48,730 nt of DNA. Origin: Microcystis aeruginosa NIES-4325 (GTDB taxonomy: Bacteria > Cyanobacteriota > Cyanobacteriia > Cyanobacteriales > Microcystaceae). Both the position numbers and the translations under genes were made by a program. This document shows, in pieces, positions 43,410 to 46,810 of this stretch. The stretch covers positions 1-48,730 of the forward strand of contig NZ_BJKP01000027.1 of NCBI RefSeq assembly GCF_008974145.1, read 5' to 3'. Each line of letters opens with the position of its first letter. Position 1 is the first letter of the stretch. The notes under the pieces are model-generated. The model worked only from the letters and a program-made list of their open reading frames with translations, had not been told where the DNA came from and did not search any database.

Positions 43410-44633
43410 ATGCTCAAAAAACGTTTATTAATACCCTTAATACTATCCCTAGTCACTTTTGGTCTAGTGGTAGCCTGTAATTCCAGCACTCCCACCGGTC
43501 AAACTAACCCCAGTCCCGCCGAAAACGCCGCCACTGCTGCTATTCCCATCGGTGCAGCTTTAGCTCAAACCAGCAATCTCGCCCTATTGGGACAGGAACA
43601 GGTGATCGGTGTCAAGATGGCTGAAACATATTTTAATAAAAAGGGCGGAGTCAATGGAACACCGATTAAAGTTATTGTGCAGGATGTGGCCGGGGATGAA
43701 CAGGGCGCGATCAACGCCATTAATACCCTAATCACTCAAGATAAGGTGGTGGCTATTCTCGGTCCGTCTCTGTCCCAGCAAGCTTTTGCCGCTAGTCCGA
43801 TCGCCGATCGAGCCAAAGTTCCCATTCTCGGCCCGTCTAACACGGCTAAAGGTATCCCCCAGATCGGTGAATATGTGGGTAGGGTGTCTGCTCCTGTGGC
43901 TGTGGTCGCTCCCAATGCGGTTAAAACCGCTTTAAAAATCGATCCCAAGATTAAAAAAGTGGCTGTCTTTTTTGCCCAAAATGATGCTTTTAGTAAATCG
44001 GAAACGGAAACTTTTCAAGAAACCCTAAAGAGTTTAAATCTTGATATTGTCACCGTGCAGAAATTCCAAACCACCGATACAGATTTTCAAAATCAAGCCA
44101 CCGCCGCTATTAATATTAAACCGGATTTAGTGATTATTTCTGGTTTGGTTGCTGACGGGGGCAATTTGGTCAAACAGTTGCGACAATTAGGCTATCAGGG
44201 GTTAATTATTGGTGGCAATGGTTTAAATACTTCTAATATTTTCCCGGTTTGTCAAGCTCAATGTGATGGTATTCTCATCGCTCAAGCTTATAACCCGGAA
44301 TTAGATAATCCTATTAATCGGGATTTTGTCGCCGCTTATACAGCAGAAAATAAAAAAGCACCGCCCCAATTTACCGCTCAAGCTTTTACGGGAATTCAAG
44401 TTTTTGTCGAGGCCTTAAAACGAGTAGATGATAAAAATAAACTCAGTACACTTTCCCTCGAACAAATTCGCCAACAATTAAATCAGGAAATTTTAGCGGG
44501 TAAGTATTTCACTGTCCTGGGAGATATCGCTTTTACTCCCGAAGGAGAAATCATTCAGGATAAATTCTCCGTGGCACAAATTAAAATGGATGCCGATGGT
44601 AAAAATGGTAAATTTACTTTTGTGGAAAATTAA
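43410..44633 (+). CDS. Branched-chain amino-acid-type ABC binding lipoprotein
   Basis: The 407-aa protein has a lipoprotein signal (LLIPLILSLVTFGLVVACNS; lipobox VVAC) and the type I periplasmic-binding fold of LivJ/NatB proteins: IPIGAALAQTSNLALLGQEQ, then VAILGPSLSQQAFAASPIAD and FTGIQVFVEALKRV. It captures amino acids or related solutes in the periplasm for an ABC transporter. The permease and ATPase genes are not in the window. ATG 43410 follows GTGGAGAG; the upstream GTG 43374 would put 12 residues before the signal. The ligand is not predictable. Confidence 0.9.
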   Translation: MLKKRLLIPLILSLVTFGLVVACNSSTPTGQTNPSPAENAATAAIPIGAALAQTSNLALLGQEQVIGVKMAETYFNKKGGVNGTPIKVIVQDVAGDEQGAINAINTLITQDKVVAILGPSLSQQAFAASPIADRAKVPILGPSNTAKGIPQIGEYVGRVSAPVAVVAPNAVKTALKIDPKIKKVAVFFAQNDAFSKSETETFQETLKSLNLDIVTVQKFQTTDTDFQNQATAAINIKPDLVIISGLVADGGNLVKQLRQLGYQGLIIGGNGLNTSNIFPVCQAQCDGILIAQAYNPELDNPINRDFVAAYTAENKKAPPQFTAQAFTGIQVFVEALKRVDDKNKLSTLSLEQIRQQLNQEILAGKYFTVLGDIAFTPEGEIIQDKFSVAQIKMDADGKNGKFTFVEN

Positions 44634-44642
44634 TCAGTAAGT

Positions 44643-44716
44643 GGTTCTTCTCGTTTCCACCTCGTTGCAAGGATATCCCTTGCAACGCACTTCCAGATGT
44701 TCTACCTCTTGTGTAA
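44643..44716 (+). repeat. 74-bp direct repeat, copy 1 (flanks toxin-antitoxin)
   Basis: This 74-bp segment contains the palindrome GTTGCAAGGATATCCCTTGCAAC and recurs at 45557-45630 with about 11 differences. The pair brackets the toxin-antitoxin genes and one MITE. Confidence 0.75.
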
Positions 44717-44920
44717 TACTAAATCCTGTTTAAAGTGTTCAAGACTGTTAAAGTCGGGTCCAAAATCAACATAATCCTGTTCTGACTTGCAATGTTCTAT
44801 TCAATTATTTTCTCATCAAAGAAAAATGTAGGTTGGTTTTCACTTTCTTCAGAAATTCTTCTTAAGTTTTCCTGTACCCTAATTCCTGCTCTGAGCTAGT
44901 TCAGGAATTTCTGGCGATTA

Positions 44921-45178
44921 TTAGTAGTGAAACTTACAGGAAATGATCACAATTTCTTGATCAGACACGCTATAAACTAGGGGATGTTCTTTTGTAATGC
45001 GTCGTGACCATAATCCTGATAGTTCATGTTTTAATGCTTCTGGTTTTCCTAATCCAGAAAAAGGCTCTCTTTGAACATCTTTAATAAGGCTGACAATTTT
45101 AGCGTAAACTTTTTTGTCTGCGATCGCCCATTGGTTAAACTCATCAAAACTTCGGGTTAGAAAGGCGACTTTCCTGAT
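44921..45178 (-). CDS. yoeB: YoeB-like mRNA interferase toxin, start codon altered
   Basis: The frame encodes 85 residues, xRKVAFLTRSFDEFNQWA and so on to CKFHY. This is the Txe/YoeB family, which cleaves mRNA at the ribosome. Catalytic-type residues are present: the Glu in GKPEALKHEL, Arg in WSRRI, and the terminal His-Tyr. The expected ATG is ATC (complement of 45176-45178); no ATG, GTG or TTG fits the family start. Either ATC initiates weakly or the toxin is silenced. It overlaps the antitoxin gene by 22 nt; the family norm is a 4-nt ATGA overlap. Confidence 0.85.
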   Translation of the reverse strand: MRKVAFLTRSFDEFNQWAIADKKVYAKIVSLIKDVQREPFSGLGKPEALKHELSGLWSRRITKEHPLVYSVSDQEIVIISCKFHY

Positions 45179-45408
45179 AAGTTAGCAGCATCTACATAAA
45201 TATAACTATCAGGATTTTTCAGAGATTCTATTGCCTCTTGGAGATGTTGACGGTTAGCTTCTGTGGAAAGCAGATAGTCGGTTTCATCCATTTCAGCAGC
45301 TTCTTTAATCAATAAAATCGCTTCGACAACTGTTCCTTCTGGTAAGTCGAGGGGAGGTAAGCTAAGTTGACCATTTTTGATGATTGTTTGGTATTTTAGT
45401 GCATTCAT
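45157..45408 (-). CDS. YefM-like antitoxin with extended C terminus
   Basis: The 83-aa protein begins MNALKYQTIIKNGQLSLPPL and has the C-terminal toxin-binding helix of YefM types (DYLLSTEANRQHLQEAIESL). The usual end would be near YIYVDAANL; here six residues SGKSPF are added because the TGA that normally overlaps the toxin ATG reads TCA. It should neutralise YoeB and repress the operon. The N terminus is AbrB/DUF104-like rather than classical Phd/YefM, a mix common in cyanobacteria. The promoter would lie above 45408, where a MITE sits. Confidence 0.85.
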   Translation of the reverse strand: MNALKYQTIIKNGQLSLPPLDLPEGTVVEAILLIKEAAEMDETDYLLSTEANRQHLQEAIESLKNPDSYIYVDAANLSGKSPF

Positions 45409-45443
45409 ATAATTTTACTATTCTTGAGATTTTATTCATTATA

Positions 45444-45535
45444 TAGCGTTTCTGATTCACACGAGGTACATTCCCGATCCTGAACAACTTAATCAGCAAA
45501 GGTTTAAGTGTGCCGCACAGATACGAGAACCGCTA
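45444..45535 (+). mobile_element. 92-bp MITE, copy 5
   Basis: It runs TAGCGTTTCTGATTCACACG...GAACCGCTA with TA at 45442-45443 and 45536-45537. It differs from copy 2 at only a few positions, so both moved recently. It lies just upstream of the antitoxin gene. Confidence 0.9.
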
Positions 45536-45556
45536 TAGCAGTTTCAAAGATAACTT

Positions 45557-45630
45557 GGCTCTTCTCATTTCTACCTCGTTGCCAGGGTATCCCTTGTAAC
45601 ACATTTCCAGAGGTTCTAGTTCTTGTGTAA
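45557..45630 (+). repeat. 74-bp direct repeat, copy 2
   Basis: It is the partner of 44643-44716, the same length and in the same orientation. Its central palindrome is less perfect (GTTGCCAGGGTATCCCTTGTAAC), so copy 1 may be closer to the original form. Confidence 0.75.
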
Positions 45631-45784
45631 CCCATTAGGGAAGGGAGGGAGACTCTGCCTTCCCTGATGGGAAAGTGGAACCTTGGCAGGAGACAAAGCG
45701 CTGATGATCACAGAAAGTCGAGAAGAGTAGAAAGAACCCTGTAGATCCGCAAGGAACCTACAACCTGCGCCTGATCTCGTTGAC

Positions 45785-46810
45785 TTATTTTTTAATGCAT
45801 TCAATAATACAAATATCCTCTTGAGTCCGAATAATTCGATTTAATTTTAATCCCGCTTGACTCAACAATTCCTCAAATTCTTCTGCGGTTCTTTCTTTAC
45901 CTCCCGGACACATAACCAACATATTCAGGTCTAACATTTTAGCCGCAGAAGGATTATTACCCGAAGGAACAACCATTTCCAAGATTAATACTTTACCGTC
46001 ACTATCTAAGGCTTGACAACAGTTTTTCAAAATAGCAATCGCCCGTCGATCATCCCAATCATGAATAATATGTTTTAATAAATAGCCATCTCCTCCCGAC
46101 GGTACGGATTCAAAAAAACTACCGCCAACGGTTTGACAACGATGGAGAATGCCGTGTTTTTCTAAAGTGGGTTGACAATGGGAAATTACATATTCTTCAT
46201 CAAAAAGAATCCCTTTTAGCTGGGGATATTGCTCTAAGATTGTTCCCAACATTTCACCGTATCCACCACCCACATCTACTAAGGTTTGAAATTCCGAGAA
46301 ATTATACACAGCCAAAATAGCCTTTTCCTCCGACAAAGAAAAACTATTCATCGACTGTTCAAAAATCTCTGCATCCAGCGGATGGGTTTGAAAATATTCA
46401 AAGACTCCCATCCCAAAGACATCATCAAAAGATGGTTGTCCCGTTTTAATACTATGTAACACATTTCCCCAGGCTTGATAATGGGGGGCTTCTCCTAACA
46501 TAATCGCTGTCGCTTTTACTGACCGGGGATGGTCACTAGATAAATGTTCGGCTAAAGGAGTTAGTATAAACTGTTGAGATTCAGTTTCTTGAAAAATTCC
46601 TACACTAGCTAATGCTCTCATCAGTCGGTATAAAGCAGCAGGGTTAGTCTCAGTTAGGGATGCTAAATCTTGACAAGATTTCCCTCCCGTGCTTAAATGT
46701 TCGGCTAGACTTAATTTAGCCGCAGCATAGATGGCTTGAGATAGCCAGTAACCAGAAACCATTTGGGTTAATTGAAGATGAAGAGGGAGTTCAGGTAACG
46801 ACATAATCAA
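45785..46810 (-). CDS. SAM-dependent O-methyltransferase
   Basis: The 341-aa protein has an N-terminal dimerisation/winged-helix domain (LSQAIYAAAKLSLAEHL, NPAALYRLMRALASVGIF) and a methyltransferase domain. The SAM motif VDVGGGYGEML begins at residue 178, and the catalytic base region LKHIIHDWDDRRA contains H250. It resembles the plant-type/acetylserotonin O-methyltransferase group, many of which modify hydroxylated natural products. Without neighbouring biosynthesis genes the substrate is unknown. The start could be Met1 (46810) or Met3 (46804). Confidence 0.88.
   Translation of the reverse strand: MIMSLPELPLHLQLTQMVSGYWLSQAIYAAAKLSLAEHLSTGGKSCQDLASLTETNPAALYRLMRALASVGIFQETESQQFILTPLAEHLSSDHPRSVKATAIMLGEAPHYQAWGNVLHSIKTGQPSFDDVFGMGVFEYFQTHPLDAEIFEQSMNSFSLSEEKAILAVYNFSEFQTLVDVGGGYGEMLGTILEQYPQLKGILFDEEYVISHCQPTLEKHGILHRCQTVGGSFFESVPSGGDGYLLKHIIHDWDDRRAIAILKNCCQALDSDGKVLILEMVVPSGNNPSAAKMLDLNMLVMCPGGKERTAEEFEELLSQAGLKLNRIIRTQEDICIIECIKK

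Follow-up and report, generated by a model that had tools for sequence, protein, structure and literature searches.

A probable decayed YoeB-family toxin-antitoxin pair with an altered stop/start overlap in Microcystis aeruginosa NIES-4325

The stretch of M. aeruginosa NIES-4325 DNA analyzed here (48,730 nucleotides of contig NZ_BJKP01000027.1; herein the window) carries an antitoxin gene whose 3′ end overlaps the frame of a YoeB-family toxin, and the four bases at which ATGA would supply the antitoxin stop and the toxin start together read ATCA, as the initial annotation had described (Table 1). The question that this locus raises is whether the toxin is still made, from ATC or from another codon, or was silenced by the same change that lengthened the antitoxin. 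We read it as very probably a decayed type II toxin-antitoxin (TA) pair, in which the toxin is a silenced pseudogene and the antitoxin can still be read; judging from the sequence, we infer that no active toxin is made in this strain.

Table 1. Features of the pair and its flanks (positions in the window)
Feature	Position	Strand	Remark
YoeB-family toxin, probable pseudogene	44921..45178	-	ATC, 84 further codons and TAA
Antitoxin ORF, 83 aa	45157..45408	-	TAA at 45159-45157; C-terminal half appears to resemble the YefM toxin-binding region
SGKSPF read-through tail	45160..45177	-	First codons of the toxin read out of frame
ATCA overlap	45175..45178	-	ATGA in 5/8 and ATCA in 3/8 locus-bearing Microcystis genomes
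CTT codon preceding ATC	45179..45181	-	CTG in G001 and G002, giving a CTGA overlap
CCC (Pro), codon 66, at the Arg65 position of E. coli YoeB	44981..44983	-	Alignment to 2a6q
75-nt direct repeat, toxin side	44642..44716		85% identical to the antitoxin-side copy
75-nt direct repeat, antitoxin side	45556..45630		85% identical to the toxin-side copy

The shared stop/start and its variants

In the mechanism that we propose, one base acts both as the third of the toxin start and as the middle of the antitoxin stop, and its change would abolish the two at once. Measured against relatives that read ATGA, the G-to-C substitution would have removed the toxin start and the coupling of stop to start; ribosomes reading the antitoxin would now terminate at 45157, ~20 bases beyond the former start, and would meet no standard start for re-entry. 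The antitoxin remains open, and its six-residue tail is just toxin codons read out of frame. Its C terminus is AANLSGKSPF followed by TAA, and the bases that follow the antitoxin stop in the Microcystis relatives are nearly the same as those that encode SGKSPF in the window.

The toxin frame begins TAA (45184-45182), CTT, ATC, AGG, which places an in-frame TAA two codons upstream of ATC; of ATG, GTG and TTG, the earliest in frame is a GTG, which stands at codon 71 of 85 (ATC being codon 1), beyond the Arg65 site. An alternative, well-supported toxin start, which the initial annotation had named as a finding that would overturn its reading, is ruled out by this TAA and by the lack of ATG, GTG or TTG ahead of codon 71. 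The arrangement of a functional type II pair, in which a usable toxin start is coupled to the stop of the antitoxin, is absent from this locus in the window. ATC is counted among the table 11 start codons; working initiation from it appears unlikely here.

Twelve Microcystis genomes were compared; nine matched the 488-base query, one of them (G008) only via a paralogous pair, which leaves eight with the locus. Alignment of these loci, the check suggested at the outset, bears out the proposal that a single G-to-C change accounts for both the gain of SGKSPF and the loss of the toxin ATG: five genomes carry ATGA in the overlap sequence TTATGAGG, the window has TTATCAGG, and G001 and G002 have TGATCAGG. 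The last two also read ATCA, so the change is not private to this strain. Both have an additional T-to-G three bases before ATCA, producing CTGA; for this reason their antitoxin ends a codon early, at AAN, and lacks SGKSPF, and CTG precedes ATC in the toxin frame. Widespread ATCA with a conserved SGKSPF had been put forward as the pattern that would tell against silencing, and on this point the outcome is mixed: ATCA is present in two of the seven other locus-bearing genomes, and SGKSPF in neither of these. SGKSPF as a conserved tail is ruled out, as all seven terminate the antitoxin ahead of it.

That ATC reflects a sequencing or assembly error at the toxin start codon is extremely improbable: although the genome that holds the window is in draft form, at 166 contigs, and the two differences of the window from its relatives are both G-to-C, ATCA stands at the same place in two other assemblies, of one and two contigs. 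Its presence in these two genomes means that ATCA is not peculiar to the window, and with three assemblies in agreement a sequencing error at ATC was rejected.

We infer that ATCA arose once and is common to the three genomes, with the window the likely intermediate that preceded the T-to-G of G001 and G002, because the fewest steps lead from ATG to ATC and then from T to G. This order rests on step counting, since the trees leave the kinship of the three ATCA genomes unsettled: in the tree of the flanks no inner branch reached both support limits, and in the tree of the pair none did so within Microcystis. In the two larger sets of loci, ATGA occupies the exact alignment position in 17 of 30 family loci and in 29 of 80 genome_contigs loci; the remaining loci in the two sets have GTGA or TTGA, start at a different codon or are unaligned at the site.

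Family membership and the catalytic residues

The toxin passes the YoeB family cut-offs, with 112.4 bits against 27 for Pfam YoeB_toxin (PF06769; E = 1e-32) and 100.3 bits against 51.8 for NCBIfam Txe/YoeB (TIGR02116; E = 5.3e-29). The antitoxin matches Pfam PhdYeFM (PF02604) over residues 34-64 only, at E = 0.0076 and 16.4 bits against a curated cut-off of 29.8, so that it falls outside the Phd/YefM family by that measure. A profile search matched its residues 34-65 to YefM residues 45-76 of 2a6q (E = 0.0012), with unrelated designed ankyrin chains ranked above in the same search. Pfam and profile searches found no Phd/YefM similarity in the N-terminal part; residues 1-60 gave a weak NCBIfam match to RelN antitoxins (18.3 bits, the cut-off being 70). 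The initial label "YefM-YoeB-type" consequently holds for the toxin and is overstated for the antitoxin: since the similarity covers residues 34-65 only and lies below the Pfam cut-off, "YefM" would be a loose name for this protein.

The active site had been described as intact, which proves wrong. Glu46 and His83 of the catalytic trio Glu46/Arg65/His83 are kept, and the Arg65 position is Pro, leaving the trio incomplete. This position is Arg in 77 of 80 genome_contigs relatives (Cys in one, Ser in one, one unaligned). Among the 30 family loci, 28 have Arg, one fails to align at the site, and Pro occurs in the window alone; the two sets overlap in some genomes. One passage of PMC3814384 has Arg65 placed to stabilize the transition state and reports it necessary for YoeB activity, and another passage of the same paper assigns the transition-state role to Arg59, which the window toxin retains. 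With Pro at the Arg65 site, any toxin still made should be inactive; the protein would be a YoeB family member by descent, and an active enzyme of ribosome-dependent mRNA cleavage is not expected. The Pro occurs in the window only and may be a sequencing error there.

Toxin lesions, antitoxin constraint and loss of the module

An undamaged toxin was found at this locus in none of the eight Microcystis genomes, and the lesions mostly differ between genomes. Six toxins are interrupted by stops or frameshifts, shortened by a deletion or replaced at an end: a codon-13 stop after the CTG-ATC head in G001; a 31-base deletion and a replaced 3′ end in G003; two stops, at codons 16 and 25, in G005; a stop at codon 17 in both G006, which also has a replaced 3′ end, and G011; and a one-base deletion in G007. 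The other two are the window toxin, which lacks a normal start and Arg65, and that of G002, which has the CTG-ATC head without a normal start and a frame otherwise fully open with Arg65. Independent toxin lesions in several strains, the signature of a decaying TA pair, are thus present. The antitoxin is full length in five of the eight genomes; in the others, G005, G006 and G011, its 5′ part is either missing or replaced. In none of the eight does a damaged antitoxin stand beside an intact toxin, the pattern to be expected were the toxin the first to be lost.

Of the close homologues beyond the genus, the toxins of L016, L019, L020, L021 and one of the two copies in L018 are open behind ATGA. 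The other L018 copy, L027 and L072 have a frameshift or stop (Geminocystis L018 4024-4511, Okeania L027 2768-3256 and Pseudanabaena L072 2762-3255 being broken close homologues of this kind), and L036 is without the 5′ part. L011 and L161 (G007:C249:27372-27622) hold a second, decayed copy of the antitoxin; it is interrupted by two internal stops, and of the toxin no more than the first few codons remain. Two scans of viral contigs found no relatives; among plasmid records, the 30 listed of 779 are ~52-53% identical, and six further records lie in the 60-80% band.

Substitution counts were compared for the two genes. Across eight rows, toxin codons 2-85 show 18 missense, 5 nonsense and 10 synonymous changes, which cannot be distinguished from neutral (P = 0.16, 0.29 and 0.46 at kappa 1, 2 and 4). 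Antitoxin codons 1-76, a range that omits the stop-gain codon 77, show 2 missense and 6 synonymous changes, with missense below the neutral expectation (P = 0.002, 0.004 and 0.009 at the same kappa values). The contrast between the genes gives a Fisher P of 0.04 over all rows, of 0.058 when codon 77 and the start codon are included, and of 0.20 in the five genomes with a full antitoxin, in which the toxin missense deficit is itself borderline (P = 0.048-0.18). Toxin changes therefore look near neutral and antitoxin changes look constrained, on small counts.

Silencing of the toxin remains the best reading, as the initial annotation had it, given a toxin with no normal start and 0/8 undamaged copies; the switch to ATC initiation that it offered as an alternative fits poorly with near-neutral toxin changes and the same absence of undamaged toxins. 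A weaker form of that alternative, in which ATC (CTG-ATC in the relatives) yields a low toxin level and so keeps the toxin scarce, is in our view very improbable. It would account for the retention of ATCA in G001 and G002, where the preceding CTG restores an antitoxin stop that overlaps a near-cognate start, and for the open toxin frame of G002, but not for the Pro of the window, for the codon-13 stop that G001 carries downstream of the same CTG-ATC, or for near-neutral toxin substitutions. A passage of PMC11497404, moreover, gives CUG 0.86% of the output of AUG and a 0.024% share of bacterial starts. Low-level toxin translation is possible in G002, because its frame is open with Arg65 and has CTG-ATC at its head.

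A paralogous YoeB pair served as a control. It lies at L162 2644-3166 (G000:C4), where the overlap reads GTGA and the toxin frame is open. Five of the 12 rows compared (10 distinct sequences) have paralogous toxins with stops, interruption or replacement. Ten rows were used for counting, G001 and G009 being excluded for misaligned toxins that are interrupted or replaced; with G008 identical to LSC13-02 and G004 to S464, eight of the ten are distinct. The toxin count used the seven rows (five distinct) without a stop or frameshift, G002, G005 and G007 being excluded for stops, and shows constraint, with 3 missense against 7 synonymous changes (P = 0.0006-0.004). The paralogous antitoxin, with 10 missense against 7 synonymous changes over the 10 rows (P = 0.05-0.16), is not clearly constrained, which argues against stricter retention of antitoxins as a general rule.

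This control bears on whether the antitoxin at our locus has been kept for a function of its own, as immunity against incoming related YoeB modules or the paralogous toxin within its own genome, leaving the toxin free to decay. We consider such a role unlikely; it is compatible with a decayed pair and would supply the reason for retention. Its presence at full length in 5/8 genomes and its 2 missense against 6 synonymous changes are in keeping with the proposal, and a passage of PMC2654758 documents anti-addiction conferred by antitoxins of the chromosome. The counts are small, however, and the constraint may predate toxin loss; the 5′ part of the antitoxin is lost or replaced in 3/8 genomes and the pair is missing in two more; and the paralogous antitoxin is merely 34% identical to the one studied here. 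A more specific version is doubtful: the antitoxin would be a toxin-free immunity gene, and following loss of the shared stop/start, as in the window, one base change in the lineage of G001 and G002 would have re-made the stop a codon earlier, as CTGA, since selection favoured the untailed protein, with the near-cognate toxin start as a by-product.

The two genomes that lack the whole pair are G009 and G010, in which the flanks join at one copy of the 75-base repeat, the element that encloses the pair in the window. Of the genomes left, G004 has a contig that terminates shortly past the flank, and in G008 the flanking transporter gene is unmatched. Another long match to the antitoxin-side repeat copy was observed at G000:C13. 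Upstream of the pair lies a methyltransferase gene (window 45785-46810) that is also present in eight other Microcystis genomes; there it adjoins the transporter gene that follows the pair only in G010, and in the other seven it is distant or on a different contig. A promoter scan of 44600-45800 found none where shuffled sequences gave 2.6 on average, and was uninformative.

Comparison with known systems

The decayed pair shows several routes of TA death at the same place within one genus: start loss, catalytic change, nonsense mutation, frameshift, replaced ends and loss of the module. Stop and start share bases, so a single substitution changes both proteins, and with ATGA, ATCA and CTGA the locus offers a small series of natural alleles. 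Microcystis TA counts may contain dead pairs; strain NIES-843 is credited with 113 TA loci, reported as the highest number in TADB, in passages of PMC7935541 and PMC4963859. Among the listed titles of papers on Microcystis TA systems, YoeB, pseudogenes and MITE, none describes this locus. One Txe/YoeB toxin transcript, VL20_RS00515, appears in a passage of PMC11705957 and is not tied to this locus.

Among the closest known systems is YefM-YoeB (E. coli YoeB, PDB 2a6q), with which the pair shares a YoeB-family toxin, the antitoxin-toxin order and an ATGA overlap in 5/8 Microcystis genomes; the C-terminal half of the antitoxin, which aligns with YefM residues 45-76, may be a further common feature. 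It differs in an antitoxin whose N-terminal part has no Phd/YefM similarity that our searches could find, and in a toxin that, in the window, lacks a normal start and has Pro at the Arg65 position. A TA module adjacent to MaOC1 in M. aeruginosa PCC 7806 is likewise a Microcystis pair flanked by two direct repeats, but its toxin is RelE/ParE-like, not YoeB, and its proteins were studied as a complex-forming pair (as described in a passage of PMC7935541).

In our reading the pair is one more decayed TA system, a kind known from earlier work. Degeneration of ccdO157 in E. coli is treated in a passage of PMC2654758 and TA decay via deletion or nonsense mutations in one of PMC7167474, and the part of PMC7280312 that concerns defective toxins puts them at ~50% of xre-res and 30% of ccdO157 homologues. 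Like these decaying chromosomal systems (ccdO157 in E. coli, xre-res in Pseudomonads), the present locus has toxin decay by deletion and nonsense mutation; unlike them, it belongs to the YoeB family in a cyanobacterial host, and one lesion at the shared stop/start alters both genes, with a second change in two genomes that produces CTGA. The three-allele series at the shared stop/start is the unusual feature of this locus.
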